DNA from: Gemmatimonadota bacterium
GTDB taxonomy: Bacteria; Gemmatimonadota; Gemmatimonadetes; Longimicrobiales; Gaopeijiaceae
DNA: 42,469 bases
Reading direction: 5' to 3'
NCBI GenBank assembly: GCA_015664885.1
Contig: DQPL01000063.1
Location: forward strand, 1 to 42,469
Shown: positions 1 through 5,400 of the stretch, in pieces
How positions within the stretch are numbered: the first letter of the stretch is position 1
Layout: every line of letters begins with the position of its first letter
The notes under the pieces: model-generated
Seen by the model: only the letters and a program-made list of their open reading frames with translations
The model's database searches: none
What the model was told of the DNA's origin: nothing
Made by a program: the position numbers and the translations under genes

Positions 1-218
1 GAGAAGCGCAAGGAACATCAAACGTGCGCCCCTGAGGGCTGCGTCATCCTTGCCGCGGTCGGCAAAAAATAGCGAACAGGGCATCCTCGTCCAGAAAAAG
101 TGGGACACCCTATCGCGTTGTTATATAACGGCTTAGGGGAATCAGACCGCACAATCGTTGGCCGGCCCATCGCTTGCGAGGAGAATGGTGAAGGACTGTT
201 CCGCTGCTCTCGCATCCG
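1..218. other. 5' intergenic stretch, no supported gene
   Basis: No convincing coding region is seen here. An ATG on the minus strand at 16-18 opens a hydrophobic start (MFLALL) that leaves the window after six codons; it could be the signal peptide of a gene to the left, but six residues prove nothing. The stretch also holds an AT-rich palindrome at 120-129, described separately. Confidence 0.4.
102..129 (+). promoter_or_regulatory. possible promoter for the 219-650 ORF
   Basis: GGGACA at 102-107 lies 16 bp before TATAAC at 124-129, close to sigma70 -35 and -10 boxes. The -10 sits inside a perfect 10-bp palindrome, GTTATATAAC (120-129), unusual in this GC-rich window. Support is sequence pattern only. 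Confidence 0.3.
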
Positions 219-650
219 ATGACCAAGAACAAGCTCAGACGTCAGCTCTACACAACCGGCACCATCGGCGTGCTGGGAGTGCTCGTATCGACTTCGGCCC
301 TAGACCGAGTGGTCAGGGCCGCAGCGCGAGGGGACCGGGCGATTGAGGTGGGCGCCCCCGCGATCTCCGCGGGAGGTGGCCCACTGACGCCTGACTCTCG
401 GCCGGCGCTGGTGGACTTCGAGCGAGCAAACGACGAAACGAGTCGCGCCACGCTTCTGCTCGCTCTGTCCACGACTCTGACACCGCTTCTGATTTTTCTG
501 AACGTGCTTGGTTTCGCGGGCTCGTCTGGGGGCGAACCGACGTACTACCGCGCCCGGCGTGACAACCGCGAGGAAGAGGAGGAGAGCGAGACGGGCGGCT
601 ACGACCCCCAAGTCACTTTGGCTCACCTTGCAAGAGGGGACCGAGCGTGA
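219..650 (+). CDS. hypothetical small membrane protein upstream of the VWA lipoprotein
   Basis: This 143-residue protein is not recognised. A basic N-terminus is followed by a hydrophobic stretch at about residues 13-27 and a second one at about 79-101, so one or two membrane segments are likely. The C-terminus is charged, with a Glu run near residue 120. Its TGA (648-650) overlaps the GTG start of the following lipoprotein (647-649) as GTGA, a layout typical of translational coupling, which is the main reason to believe it is a gene. It could instead be a chance ORF in GC-rich DNA. Confidence 0.45.
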   Translation: MTKNKLRRQLYTTGTIGVLGVLVSTSALDRVVRAAARGDRAIEVGAPAISAGGGPLTPDSRPALVDFERANDETSRATLLLALSTTLTPLLIFLNVLGFAGSSGGEPTYYRARRDNREEEEESETGGYDPQVTLAHLARGDRA

Positions 651-1938
651 GGCGCCGGGGCCTAACCCCGTGCGCGTTGGCCCTGCTCACAGTGTTCGCG
701 GCTTGTTCGGATACTCCGCTCGCACCCGTGATGCCCTTCGAGGTGTCGCCCCCCCGTTCACGGTGATCGACGGTGGAGAGGTCAACACGTCCATCACGGT
801 TGAAAGCCTGATTCAGTGCACGGAGAAGGCGGTGGTGACTGTGAGCATCGAGGGCGTCACGCCAGCGGCTGCATCAGCCCTGCTCGACGTGATCTTGGTG
901 ATCGACGAATCCGGAAGCGTCGATGCCGTGGAGAACGAGCTGGTCGTCGCGGCTGCTCGAAGCTTCCTGGAGACCATGGACCAGTCAGATGGCATCGACG
1001 ACAACGGGCTCACCGGCGTCAGAATCGGCGTCGTGCGGTACGGCAGCTTGGTCAACCTCGCACCCTTACCGACAACTACGACAACATTTTCCAGGCGGTC
1101 TCTGTGCGGCTCACGTTCGTTGGCACGACCAACACCTATGGTGCCCTCGAGAAGGCTCGAACCCACTTCGCGGAAGAGGCGCGCCCCACCGCAGCGACCG
1201 CAGTCGTCTTGATGACCGACGGTGAAAACAGCACCTCCTTCTTCAGGCCTGAACAACACGCGAACGCAATGAAGGCCGCCGGCACGACCATCTGGGCGGT
1301 CGGCGTCGGTACCGAGGTGAGCCAAACGGAGCTAGAAGCCATCGCGTCACCGGACCAAGTCATCGAACTGGAGGAATTCGCCGAGCTGGAGGCTGCTTTC
1401 GAGCTGATCGCCGGCCAGTTCACACCTCCTGCGGCGACCGACCTGGTCTTCTCAGCCAGCGTTCCAGCCGACTTCACCTTGGTGGCCGCCTCGGCGGCGA
1501 CCGCTCGGGGCACGGTGATCGAAAGCGGGAACACTGTCGCATGGCAGATCGACCGACTCGGCGCTGAGACAATCACGATGACGTATCAGATCAGACACGA
1601 CGACGTCGCAACGCCTTCCGGTGGTACTTTGACCGCGGTCACTAACGCAGTGCTGACCCTGACGACCCCTGTGGGTGGTGCCGCGTTCAGCGAGGCATAC
1701 GCCGACGTCGACACCCGAAGTCACGGGCTGCAGTGCGCCTCCACCACCCACCTCCTGCTCCTCGGACCGGTCGAAGAAGTCCGACAAGTCCGCGAAGTCG
1801 GCCAAGTCCACGAAATCAGACAAGTCCAGCAAGTCGGACAAGAGCACTAAGTCATGCAAGTCCGGCAGGAGTCATAAGTCGGCAAAGACCCACAAGTCCG
1901 GCCAGAGCGACAAGTCCGCCAAGGGCAAGAAGGGCTAG
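647..1938 (+). pseudogene. VWA-domain lipoprotein with (Lys-Ser-X)16 tail, three frameshifts
   Basis: The protein is readable only by joining frames. GTG at 647 opens a lipoprotein signal peptide with its cysteine at residue 20 (VFAAC). The frame shifts in a C7 run (749-755), after which a von Willebrand factor A domain begins with MIDAS motif DESGS (about 907-921). A second shift occurs at CCC 1063-1065; the domain continues with LTDNYDN, GTTNTYGAL and LMTDGE. A DUF11-like beta domain follows (about 1435-1710). A third shift at CCC 1714-1716 opens a Pro/Cys linker and a tail of Lys-Ser-X triplets ending in KGKKG. Joined length is about 430 residues. VWA lipoproteins usually bind protein or polymer ligands on the cell surface; the cationic tail could bind anionic polymer (inference). 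Either a real pseudogene or an intact gene with homopolymer errors. Confidence 0.8.
1777..1920 (+). repeat. 16 tandem 9-bp units encoding Lys-Ser-X
   Basis: Sixteen consecutive 9-bp units encode KSD, KSA, KST, KSS, KSC or KSG triplets, with variants RSH, KTH and QSD. The serine codons are TCC, TCG, TCA, AGC and AGT. TCN and AGY serine codons cannot interchange by one silent change, so the Lys-Ser protein pattern has been kept by selection. This fixes the real reading frame as the one ending at 1938, not the overlapping frame ending at 1850. Confidence 0.85.
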
Positions 1939-4661
1939 TTACCGTTCCCCTCATGGTCGCTTTCATCCTCATCCTCATCCTCTGTCGGTGCGGTCCAGAA
2001 GTCGTCGTTGTCCGGGGCCTGCGCGGCGACCTCCCGAGCGTAGAGCGCCGCGTTGAAGAGCACCTTGAACGTGCCGAACGGCTGACCACGCCACTGCGGC
2101 TTCATGCCGAGCAGTACGACCCGGCCGTCCCCGTATTCCACGTCGAGCGCCGCTGCGTACCCCTGCACATGCTGCTCACCGAGGAAGTACCCCGACAGAA
2201 GGGGTGATCCGTTCTCGGAGTATTTTGCGAGCACGTGTCCCTCGAAGTCCTCCGTGGTCTTGAAGACCGGGCTGCCACCGACGAACACCTTCGAGCGAGC
2301 GCTCATGCCGCTCATGACCGGTTGAGAGGGATCCACCAGCAACTCGACAATCGCCCCACCCGCGAAATACTCGTCCCTGGGCACATCCTCAATCACGTTC
2401 TCGACCGGCAGATGAAGCTCGTCGATCACGAAGTTGCTCGAGCGGTTGATCGTCACAAGCGTACCGCCGGAACGGACGAACGCGTCGAGCTCCCGCACTC
2501 CTTCCGGCCCTATGCCTCCCGCGTAGCGGGGTGGCACGGAGCCATTGGCGGAGCCGTTGACGATCTGCCCAGCGCGCATGTCGGCGAGCAGAATCACGTC
2601 GTAGCGCGAGCCCAGGTCACCGGCTCTTACGTCCGCGCTGTAGAGGCTCGTGAAGGCGAGGCCGTACATCTCGAGCAACCAGCGCGTCCAGCCCTCGTCC
2701 ATGCTGGCGTTCCAGGGGCGGTACAGACCAACGCGGGGTTGGCTCACCGCCGCACCGGCTGATCCGCCCCGTGAGGCACGTAAAGCGTACTTGCTAACCA
2801 GCGAGTTCTGCGCGTTGCCCGAGAGACCCGTGACGATCCAACGACCGCTCGAGCCGCCCGCACCCTCCTCCCCCGCGGCGCCGGGCTGGAAGCGGACACT
2901 GCCCCCGTTGCGCCACGCCTCGGCAAGAGCCTTGTAGGAGTTGTTCTGAGCCGGGTCGAGCAGCAGGGCGCCGCCGCCGCCGGTCACGACCCCCGCCGGA
3001 GGCACAATCGCGCGCGCGACCGGATGGCTGTCGAAGCCAACTCCAGGAGGCGTGTCCCACGTCTGTGCATCGCCCGGCGCGTTCCACGGCAGCGGGTCCG
3101 AACGGACCTCGGCCATGGCGGTGCGAACCTCGTCACTCAACGGCGTTCGCGCCTCTACGACCCTCACGTCGAACTGGTAGGGGAGCGTCCAGCCAGACAC
3201 GTCGTACGGTTGCTCCGGCGGGCCCTCAGGATACTCGCGCAGATCGGGATAGTCCTGCACGGAGAAGAGCTGACGCACGAAGTTCGCGTTCGCTTGATCC
3301 ATCGGAATCACCCAGCTCCCAGCGGCGTGGCTGACGCCATCGACGGTGACCGCGCCCGAGAGCTGCCTAACGCCGATGCCGTTGAAGGCCAGTCGGCGCA
3401 GCATCTCGACCGCCGCTACGGGGTCGCGCTGGTCCTGGGCGATGAAGTACGCGTAGGGAGGTCCCGTCCTGTACTGCTCGATGACAGCTCTCGCCGCCTG
3501 GAAGCGGTTGAAGAGGATGTCGTTTTTGTACTTCGCCGCCACATCGAGCACCGAAACCGAAGCGGTCAGCATGTAGTCGACGGCGTCCTTGATACGCCAC
3601 CAACCGCCCGGCCAAGGGCTCGCATAAAGCGACTGGGGCCGAAGTTCGCGCTGGCCTCGCGGAAAGTCGTTGATCGTATAGAAGTGCGGCGTGGCGTAGC
3701 GGTACAAGCCCGTCTCGGTCAGGAACGACGCGACGTTGTGGAAATTATTGGCGTGGTCCAGAAATCCTGGATACCAGTTGTCGAAGCCGCTCCCCATGTG
3801 CATGGCACCCTTCTGTCCACGCTCCTCGAGCGCCTGAGCCATCGCCATCCCGATCAAATTGACCGTGCGCCACATGAGTGGATGCACGTTCGGGCTGATG
3901 GGCTCCGCGAAAGGCGGAATCCAGATGCGCGCGGGGAAAGGCGCCGTCTGGTGGTGGTTGTAGATGATCTGCGGTTCCCAGTGTCGATCTATGCGCGTCA
4001 CCACCCGCGACTCGATCTGATTGATCATATATCCGTCGCGGTTGTTGTCGTGCCCGATGTACTTCTGATACAGGAACGGCGTGCCCGAGACCTCGAACGG
4101 TGTGCCCAGGTTCTCGTAATACCAATCCGACACCATGGTCTGGCCATCGGGGTTGATGCTGAACCACAGCACCAGGATGACGTTGTCGAGGATGGCGGCG
4201 ATCTCCGGATCGGCATCGCCCGTCACGAGGTCGTATGCGAGCTGTATCGTGTGCTGCGCGTGCGCTACCTCGGTGGCGTGCAGCCCACCGTCGATGTGCA
4301 CGATCGCTTTGCCCTCTTCGGCGAGCGCTCGCGCGTCTGATGCGGTCAGGTCGTCGCTCGGATACGCGAGGCGGTGCGCGATTTCCCTGTAACGCTCCGA
4401 GTTCCTGAGATTCTCGGCCGACGATATCAGCGCGAGATACCACGGCCGGCCAAAGCTGGTCTCGCCGATCTCGAGCAACTCGACTCGGTCGGACGCGGCG
4501 GCAAGCCGCTCAAAGTACTCCAGCGATTGCTCGTAGTTGGCGAGCTCGAAATCGGCGCCCACGGGATATCCGAGCACCGACTCAGGCGTGGGAATCTGCG
4601 CGGCGACGGGAGCAGGTAGTGCCAGCAAGCACGCACCGGCGACGAAGGTTAGGACCCGCAT
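1935..4661 (-). CDS. secreted M14-family zinc carboxypeptidase-like protein (908 aa)
   Basis: A signal peptide (about residues 1-21, ending PVAAQ) leads into a metallocarboxypeptidase fold. Zinc ligands are visible as His128 and Glu131 in GGLHATEV and a histidine of YNHHQ (236/237); the likely catalytic Glu is 316 in FLTETG. The substrate-pocket region carries the GHDNNRDGY motif. The 500 residues after the catalytic domain include a likely glutamine-amidotransferase-like Rossmann region, common in large bacterial M14 proteins. It probably trims peptides outside the cytoplasm. It shares layout and motifs with the 873-aa protein at 34366-36987. Its stop codon overlaps that of the convergent VWA gene in a CTAG. 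Exact substrate is unknown. Confidence 0.9.
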   Translation of the reverse strand: MRVLTFVAGACLLALPAPVAAQIPTPESVLGYPVGADFELANYEQSLEYFERLAAASDRVELLEIGETSFGRPWYLALISSAENLRNSERYREIAHRLAYPSDDLTASDARALAEEGKAIVHIDGGLHATEVAHAQHTIQLAYDLVTGDADPEIAAILDNVILVLWFSINPDGQTMVSDWYYENLGTPFEVSGTPFLYQKYIGHDNNRDGYMINQIESRVVTRIDRHWEPQIIYNHHQTAPFPARIWIPPFAEPISPNVHPLMWRTVNLIGMAMAQALEERGQKGAMHMGSGFDNWYPGFLDHANNFHNVASFLTETGLYRYATPHFYTINDFPRGQRELRPQSLYASPWPGGWWRIKDAVDYMLTASVSVLDVAAKYKNDILFNRFQAARAVIEQYRTGPPYAYFIAQDQRDPVAAVEMLRRLAFNGIGVRQLSGAVTVDGVSHAAGSWVIPMDQANANFVRQLFSVQDYPDLREYPEGPPEQPYDVSGWTLPYQFDVRVVEARTPLSDEVRTAMAEVRSDPLPWNAPGDAQTWDTPPGVGFDSHPVARAIVPPAGVVTGGGGALLLDPAQNNSYKALAEAWRNGGSVRFQPGAAGEEGAGGSSGRWIVTGLSGNAQNSLVSKYALRASRGGSAGAAVSQPRVGLYRPWNASMDEGWTRWLLEMYGLAFTSLYSADVRAGDLGSRYDVILLADMRAGQIVNGSANGSVPPRYAGGIGPEGVRELDAFVRSGGTLVTINRSSNFVIDELHLPVENVIEDVPRDEYFAGGAIVELLVDPSQPVMSGMSARSKVFVGGSPVFKTTEDFEGHVLAKYSENGSPLLSGYFLGEQHVQGYAAALDVEYGDGRVVLLGMKPQWRGQPFGTFKVLFNAALYAREVAAQAPDNDDFWTAPTEDEDEDESDHEGNGN

Positions 4662-4884
4662 GTGGCTTTCCCGCTAGGAGGTACGCGTGCTGAGGAGGCA
4701 GGAAAGTGTCCTCCCCAACCGAGAGAAGCTACCGGCGGGCAGTCCCCATTACTCGCGGTAGTTCGTCCCGCGTCCCCCACTCGCGCCGAGAGCCGTCTAG
4801 CCACGATCAAATTCCGCATCATCTTCCTCTCCTCGAACTGGACTCCGTCACGATCAAACGTCGACGCTCGCGCTTGGAGGCGTC

Positions 4885-5400
4885 TTGAACCAACCCAACG
4901 TGGAAGTTCAGTCCATCCCAGCCCCGGCACCGACCGCGAGCTACTCAGGCACGCCCTCGCCACGCTTGCGTATCGCGGCGGCAAGGTCATGCGCGGAGTG
5001 CCGGCGGAATTCAGCGACTTCCGCATCGGCCCCGCGAGTCGCTCTCCAATCGAGATCCTGGGCCACATTTGCGATGTGCTCGACTGGAGCCTCGCGATGG
5101 CGGAGGGCGAGCACAGATGGTCCGAGACGCGCTCGACCGTCTGGCGGGACCAGGTCGACCGTTTCTTCCAAGCGCTTACGGACTTCGATGACTACCTGGC
5201 CTCGGATCGCGAGCTCGGGTTCCCGATTACGCAGCTGCTTCAAGGACCGGTCGCGGACTCATTCACGCACGCCGGCCAGATCGCGATGCTGCGCCGCTTG
5301 GCTGGCTCGCCTGTAAAGGACGAGAACTACGCCAAGGCGAACATCACCAGGGGTGTGGTGGGCGCTGAGCAGCCACCCGCCGAGCCAGAATTCGACTGAA
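4885..5400 (+). CDS. DinB-like protein, probable one-base frameshift near its start
   Basis: The body (from about 4929) reads LLRHALATLAYRGG..., then LGHICDVLDW and FTHAGQIAMLRRLAG. The histidines of the last two match the metal-binding helices of the DinB/YfiT four-helix bundle. That frame has no good start nearby. A TTG at 4885 with GGAGG 4 bp upstream opens another frame (MNQPNVEVQSIPAP) that would join the body if one C were restored in the C4 run at 4922-4925, giving about 172 residues, a normal family length. DinB-like proteins are mostly thiol-dependent transferases of unknown substrate. The gene is alone, divergent from the M14 gene. Confidence 0.7.

Follow-up and report, generated by a model that had tools for sequence, protein, structure and literature searches.

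The locus and its split gene

The stretch of DNA analysed here, referred to as the window, is 42,469 nucleotides long and makes up the whole of contig C105 of the source genome (G000; 136 contigs, 3.96 Mb). Frame reading placed a gene on the forward strand at positions 647–1938, split over four successive open stretches (Table 1). The reading frame passes from 647 (open to about 763) to 757 (to about 1075), then to 1068 (to about 1727), and finally to 1729, and each of the four pieces is free of in-frame stops. As assembled, the gene cannot encode the joined protein. Both of its ends are shared with neighbours. The GTG start overlaps the TGA of a small upstream ORF (GTGA), for which no Pfam match was found, and the tail stop overlaps that of a convergent M14 zinc carboxypeptidase gene (CTAG, 1935–1938). 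An initial annotation of this DNA had proposed a lipobox, a VWA domain with an intact MIDAS, a DUF11-like domain and a cationic tail, in this order and interrupted by three shifts. The analysis supports both the list of parts and the three frame changes.

Table 1. Features of the locus, in window coordinates
Feature	Positions	Strand	Basis
Small putative membrane protein, 143 aa, upstream partner	219–650	+	ORF; one frame in G001, 60% identity
First piece: GTG start, signal peptide and lipobox (FAAC)	647–754	+	Aligns with N-terminus of G038 homologue; also a separate match in profile searches
C7 run, site of first frame change	749–755	+	Sequence
Second piece: N-terminal beta region and first half of VWA	757–1071	+	Domain search; G038 alignment
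VWA domain on joined pieces, interrupted by second frame change	886–1400	+	PF00092 match converted to window coordinates
MIDAS DxSxS letters (DESGS)	904–918	+	By eye; D-E-S-G in G038 too, then P
Third piece: second half of VWA and DUF11-like all-beta stretch (about 1422–1727)	1077–1727	+	PF00092; all-beta model
Fourth piece: CSAPPPPTSC linker and polycationic tail, TAG at 1936–1938	1729–1938	+	Translation
Sixteen nine-base units for K-S-X-like tripeptides	1777–1920	+	TRF; codon analysis
Convergent M14 zinc carboxypeptidase gene	1935–4661	-	PF00246, E 5.6e-15; tblastn against G001, 90% identity

A basic start, a hydrophobic stretch and a lipobox with its cysteine were read by eye in VRRRGLTPCALALLTVFAAC. 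The lipobox reads ...LLTVFAAC, with the Cys codon at 704–706 and a Phe at position -3, which is not the commonest letter there. The joined pieces matched PF00092 with E 3.2e-19 and 70.3 bits (Pfam cut-off 23.8), while the unjoined pieces scored 22.1 and 48.8 bits, the stretch 1068–1847 giving E 1.3e-12. Among solved structures, the best VWA relative by profile was Proximal thread matrix protein 1 (4cn8, E 1.3e-18), which we take to be an animal matrix protein of the mussel byssus. By eye, the MIDAS pattern DxSxS...T...D is complete, as had been claimed, with DESGS followed by Thr at about 1125–1136 and Asp at 1218–1220.

The DUF11-like stretch is a tentative assignment. No family match was found for the window copy at 0.05, whereas the copy of the region in G038, a relative in the same family, matched PF01345 with E 0.0014 and an NCBIfam DUF11-type repeat at only 0.047. 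A single-sequence model of 1422–1727 had seven strands and no helix, at low confidence (pLDDT 64). It gave no significant PDB match, the fold being too uncertain for one.

Homologues and the state of the gene

The core protein was found in two of 98 relatives and in two of 154 genomes of the order, in both cases G000 and G038. The search of the order was run with the core alone, because the profile used for the phylum also included the end of the G038 protein. In the phylum, a profile search matched 12 of 395 genomes; the 11 besides G000 matched mainly the Ig-like end of G038, and one of the matches in that search, in G170, covers positions 289–474. For the VWA part, no match at 1e-8 was found outside G000 among the 395 phylum genomes, a sample to which G038 does not belong. 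A related-locus search with 1068–1847 returned nothing from genome_contigs or viral_contigs, and the one match of the joined protein to plasmids by tblastn was a distant VWA protein (27.9%). The tailed gene itself turned up in no second copy.

The G038 gene (L012:3598–4992) is a single open frame with the same order of parts as the window gene. The two have in common the lipobox, the N-terminal beta region, the VWA domain and the DUF11-like region, with 41–44% identity. Because homology to G038 (41% identity) is continuous from the lipobox to a 'GC' and so spans the first two frame changes, the pieces make up one gene. At the third change the homology is slight, limited to the 'GC' and a few prolines. 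The proteins differ beyond this point: that of G038 has an Ig-like domain after the 'GC' and lacks a K-S-X tail. Its MIDAS reads DESGPS in place of DESGS, and the neighbours of its gene differ from those in the window. The G038 frame ends at a TAG (L012:4990–4992), and coding-like sequence continues (4990–5075) to the contig end. The G038 copy may be broken as well.

These results limit what can be made of the combination of parts, which the initial annotation had regarded as unusual. As a conserved architecture it did not hold up: the sole core homologue found has no K-S-X tail, and the gene is absent from G001, a genome of the same genus. That annotation had suggested a homologue search with the joined protein and had itself named homologues lacking the tail as evidence against its proposal; the search was run, and the G038 protein is such a homologue. 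As for an alternative frame ending at 1850, which had been raised as a competitor of the tail frame, G038 gives it no support beyond the 'GC' either.

The G001 locus is otherwise collinear. Window positions 45–571 and 1963–4736 match G001:C7 on both sides, with 91 bases between the flanks in G001 and 1391 in the window. The G001 copy of the upstream gene no longer has its own end and continues into read-through sequence, whereas the M14 gene there has retained its end. Since both window junctions are tight overlaps, deletion from G001 is our preferred reading of its missing copy; gain of the gene in the window lineage is the less preferred one.

Three frame changes within about 1.3 kb could reflect either a decayed gene or errors in the assembly. 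Compared with G001, the M14 gene shows no frame break over 892 aa (90% identity), and neither does the upstream ORF. Because the three changes fall in one gene between unbroken neighbours, a pseudogene is favoured, and inactivation, rather than assembly error, is the probable cause. A crude codon model flagged 14 frame switches without explanation in 400 kb of G000, and three in the window, one of these three in the gene, but as it overlooked or misfiled the gene's other two changes, this background rate is rough. No piece contains an in-frame stop, which would make any inactivation recent. Our leading interpretation, to which we give an even chance, is that the locus holds an accessory, lineage-restricted gene for an exported lipoprotein that was recently inactivated and whose product may have served in adhesion and polyanion binding.

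The best surviving alternative is that errors of assembly or sequencing, close to the end of a contig, produced the frame changes, in which case the gene would be intact and would make a tailed VWA lipoprotein. Several features are compatible with this. Its start is 647 bases from the end of contig C105, which places the gene at the contig edge, and the first change falls at a C7 run; such runs have a frequency of 4.45 per 100 kb in the part of the genome sampled. The pieces hold no in-frame stops. The overlapping GTGA and CTAG junctions would be consistent with a living operon. Three errors in one gene would, however, form a strong local cluster between unbroken reading frames, in a window that is dominated by long ORFs. 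We regard errors of this kind as possible but unlikely, a pseudogene being roughly twice as probable.

The lysine-serine tail and related arrays

The fourth piece ends in a strongly basic, low-complexity sequence; its last 69 residues hold 20 K/R against 5 D/E, with a pI of 10.2. A sixteen-fold Lys-Ser-X repeat had been proposed. The count of sixteen units stands, although strict K-S-X occurs in 13 of them, the rest being RSH, KTH and QSD. Two further K-S-X arrays were found in G000, both on the minus strand, at C26:87746–87910 and C11:60136–60213. Across the three arrays, 35 core units could be compared, with partial units at the array ends (e.g. AAG GGC) excluded. The K position was K or R in 34 of the 35 units and the S position S or T in all of them, while the X position was free.

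Codon usage within the units was informative. The mixture of TCN and AGY serine codons described earlier was confirmed, and the first two serine positions changed jointly to AGY, with both changed in 7 units, one in a single unit and neither in 27 (Fisher p 1.2e-6 over 35 units, a value that overstates the independent evidence since array units arise by duplication). Per-position entropies were 0.19, 0.19 and 0.66 bits for the three lysine positions, 1.82 for the third serine position and 1.45–1.57 for X, and thus lacked the even variation of a plain DNA tandem repeat. Because the K and S positions are kept, X is free and the serine changes are coupled, the tail frame looks to be under peptide-level selection, which strengthens the earlier suggestion that more than growth of a DNA repeat is involved.

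The distribution of the arrays was then considered at three levels. Among relatives, a five-fold AARTC pattern at nine-base spacing gave five matches in G000, beyond what chance would give, and none in the other 97 genomes. A four-unit search of G000 with up to three mismatches added three scattered single matches, all of them at three mismatches. With two mismatches allowed, the five-fold pattern occurred in 15 of 395 phylum genomes, G000 among these, and translation of the other 14 loci gave several near-pure KSA repeats on other proteins. These KSA ends resemble the window tail in placing Lys-Ser-X near the ends of proteins, in other families of the phylum (SecF-like and signal-peptidase-like by eye). 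Unlike the window tail, they are mostly near-pure DNA repeats with Ala as X, on proteins that appear by eye to be cytoplasmic or membrane-bound. In genome_contigs, at least 116 stretches of the AARTC-type pattern were found.

One strong K-S-X protein stands out among the public loci listed, from an Opitutaceae MAG (L074). It is a secreted-looking ORF of 957 residues with a 24-unit K-S-X array that includes five AGY serines, followed by a Trp/Gly-rich end (WTWWGWWSWWG); no VWA domain was seen in it by eye. In a gammaproteobacterial MAG (L115), a Trp/Gly stretch lies ahead of a similar array.

The genes that carry the other two G000 arrays were examined. The array on C11 forms the end (...RRCKSAKSGKSCKSGKSGKSAKSNKSKKG) of an orphan ORF at C11:60136–60897 on the minus strand, a 5′-truncated-looking open frame of 272 residues. 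It had no match in the 97 other relatives or in plasmids and no Pfam match, and no signal peptide was seen by eye in three frames. Beyond the stop codon of this ORF, some 20 codons in a different frame match G001:C66 just before a tRNA-Arg, and the tRNA-Arg follows. The matching part of G001:C66 closes a frame that matches Phage_integrase at 38.3 bits; a second frame beyond the tRNA scored 20.8 for the same family, under the cut-off of 27.1. This points to a probable integrase remnant at an integration site beside the C11 ORF. The array on C26 lies in a short ORF that consists of the tail only, just downstream of a tRNA-Ala. At the same site G001 has about 3.4 kb, part of it a subtilase-PKD gene whose start is lipobox-like and whose product ends in a short basic stretch. 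All three G000 tails thus sit on broken or truncated-looking genes.

Three unrelated contexts in G000, and the absence of the tail from G001 and 96 other relatives at the five-unit level, could suggest that K-S-X is a C-terminal module shared by several unrelated genes of this lineage, a tag by which exported proteins are retained or sorted at the surface. The C-terminal charge of ORFs was compared in a sample of 967 kb (about 24% of G000), the ORFs being picked by a simple rule on length and GC3, and errors are expected in that set. Of the 870 ORFs sampled, none had a higher C-terminal net charge than the C11 ORF (+12), as such a tag might predict. On the other side, none of 31 sampled lipobox candidates had a C-terminal net charge of 5 or more, none of the three tails is carried by an intact exported protein, no partner enzyme was identified, and the G038 homologue has no tail. 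We consider a lineage tag improbable. The same low weight attaches to its mobile form, in which a lineage-specific K-S-X module would have been added to exported proteins of unrelated kinds to retain them at the surface or bind matrix, would have travelled in part with integrative elements that target tRNA genes, and would now be decaying at all three G000 sites.

Even less probable is that the tail is a mere nine-base DNA tandem repeat that happens to be open in frame. TRF does call the window array, and nine-base AARTC-type arrays are widespread in the bacterial and viral contigs listed, mostly in short ORFs. Against a chance reading stand the lysine codon variation, which is mainly synonymous, and the coupled TC/AG serine changes. 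Among the matches listed, moreover, two or more AGY serines occurred in one of 171 public loci with six TCN units, although the search pattern itself disfavours AGY. The weakest proposal, phase variation of a surface gene through slippage at the C7 run, gains something from the position of the run at the first change, inside the first 110 bases of a surface-protein gene, but slippage there would leave the second and third changes, which lie away from long runs, and C7 runs are not rare in G000; we give it very little weight.

Proposed function and known parallels

A lipidated cysteine tethers a protein to the envelope, and VWA domains with a MIDAS bind ligands through a metal ion. On this basis, the intact product of the putative accessory lipoprotein gene would be lipidated at the Cys encoded at 704–706 and held at the envelope, where a divalent metal would mediate ligand binding by its VWA domain, and the DUF11-like beta domain would serve as a spacer. 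The K-S-X tail, which is polycationic and presumably disordered, would retain or crosslink polyanions (LPS, exopolysaccharide or extracellular DNA, for example). The initial annotation had likewise suggested that the protein could bind polysaccharide, DNA or another cell, or that its serines could be modified. Surface location, adhesion and polyanion binding are all proposed here by analogy with the known parts.

A model for how such a lipoprotein could work is CglB of Myxococcus xanthus, presented in PMC12282271 as a VWA surface lipoprotein adhesin that acts through its MIDAS. The likeness is one of description. We know of no K-S-X tail on CglB.

The tail itself invites comparison with the silaffins of diatoms, for which PMC5501833 gives a criterion of five lysines in 12–14 residues, together with spaced lysines with serines and pentalysine clusters. 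Five lysines occur within 13 residues of the window tail (KSDKSAKSAKSTK), a likeness of composition only. Silaffins, according to that source, are eukaryotic, carry an ER signal peptide and belong to a silica context, while the window gene is bacterial. Assignment of the tail to the silaffins was considered and dropped on the signal peptide, the start of this bacterial gene being lipobox-like and not of the eukaryotic ER type. In the literature on lysine-serine or lysine-rich repeat tails and on VWA lipoproteins, no such bacterial tail was found, which is not proof of absence; papers that came up for Lys-Ser repeats seemed to use KS in unrelated senses, and a literature search that combined VWA, Gemmatimonad and lipoprotein found nothing.

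VWA lipoproteins are nothing new, and accessory genes are commonly found broken. The cationic, low-complexity tail is less usual: it appears to be selected at the peptide level, and it was found on three different remnants in G000 but not in G001. K-S-X tails are rare among the relatives of G000, and the tail would seem to be more a curiosity than a new system. Should sister strains hold intact versions, these would allow a clean test of spaced-lysine tails as a general anchor to the bacterial surface or matrix.
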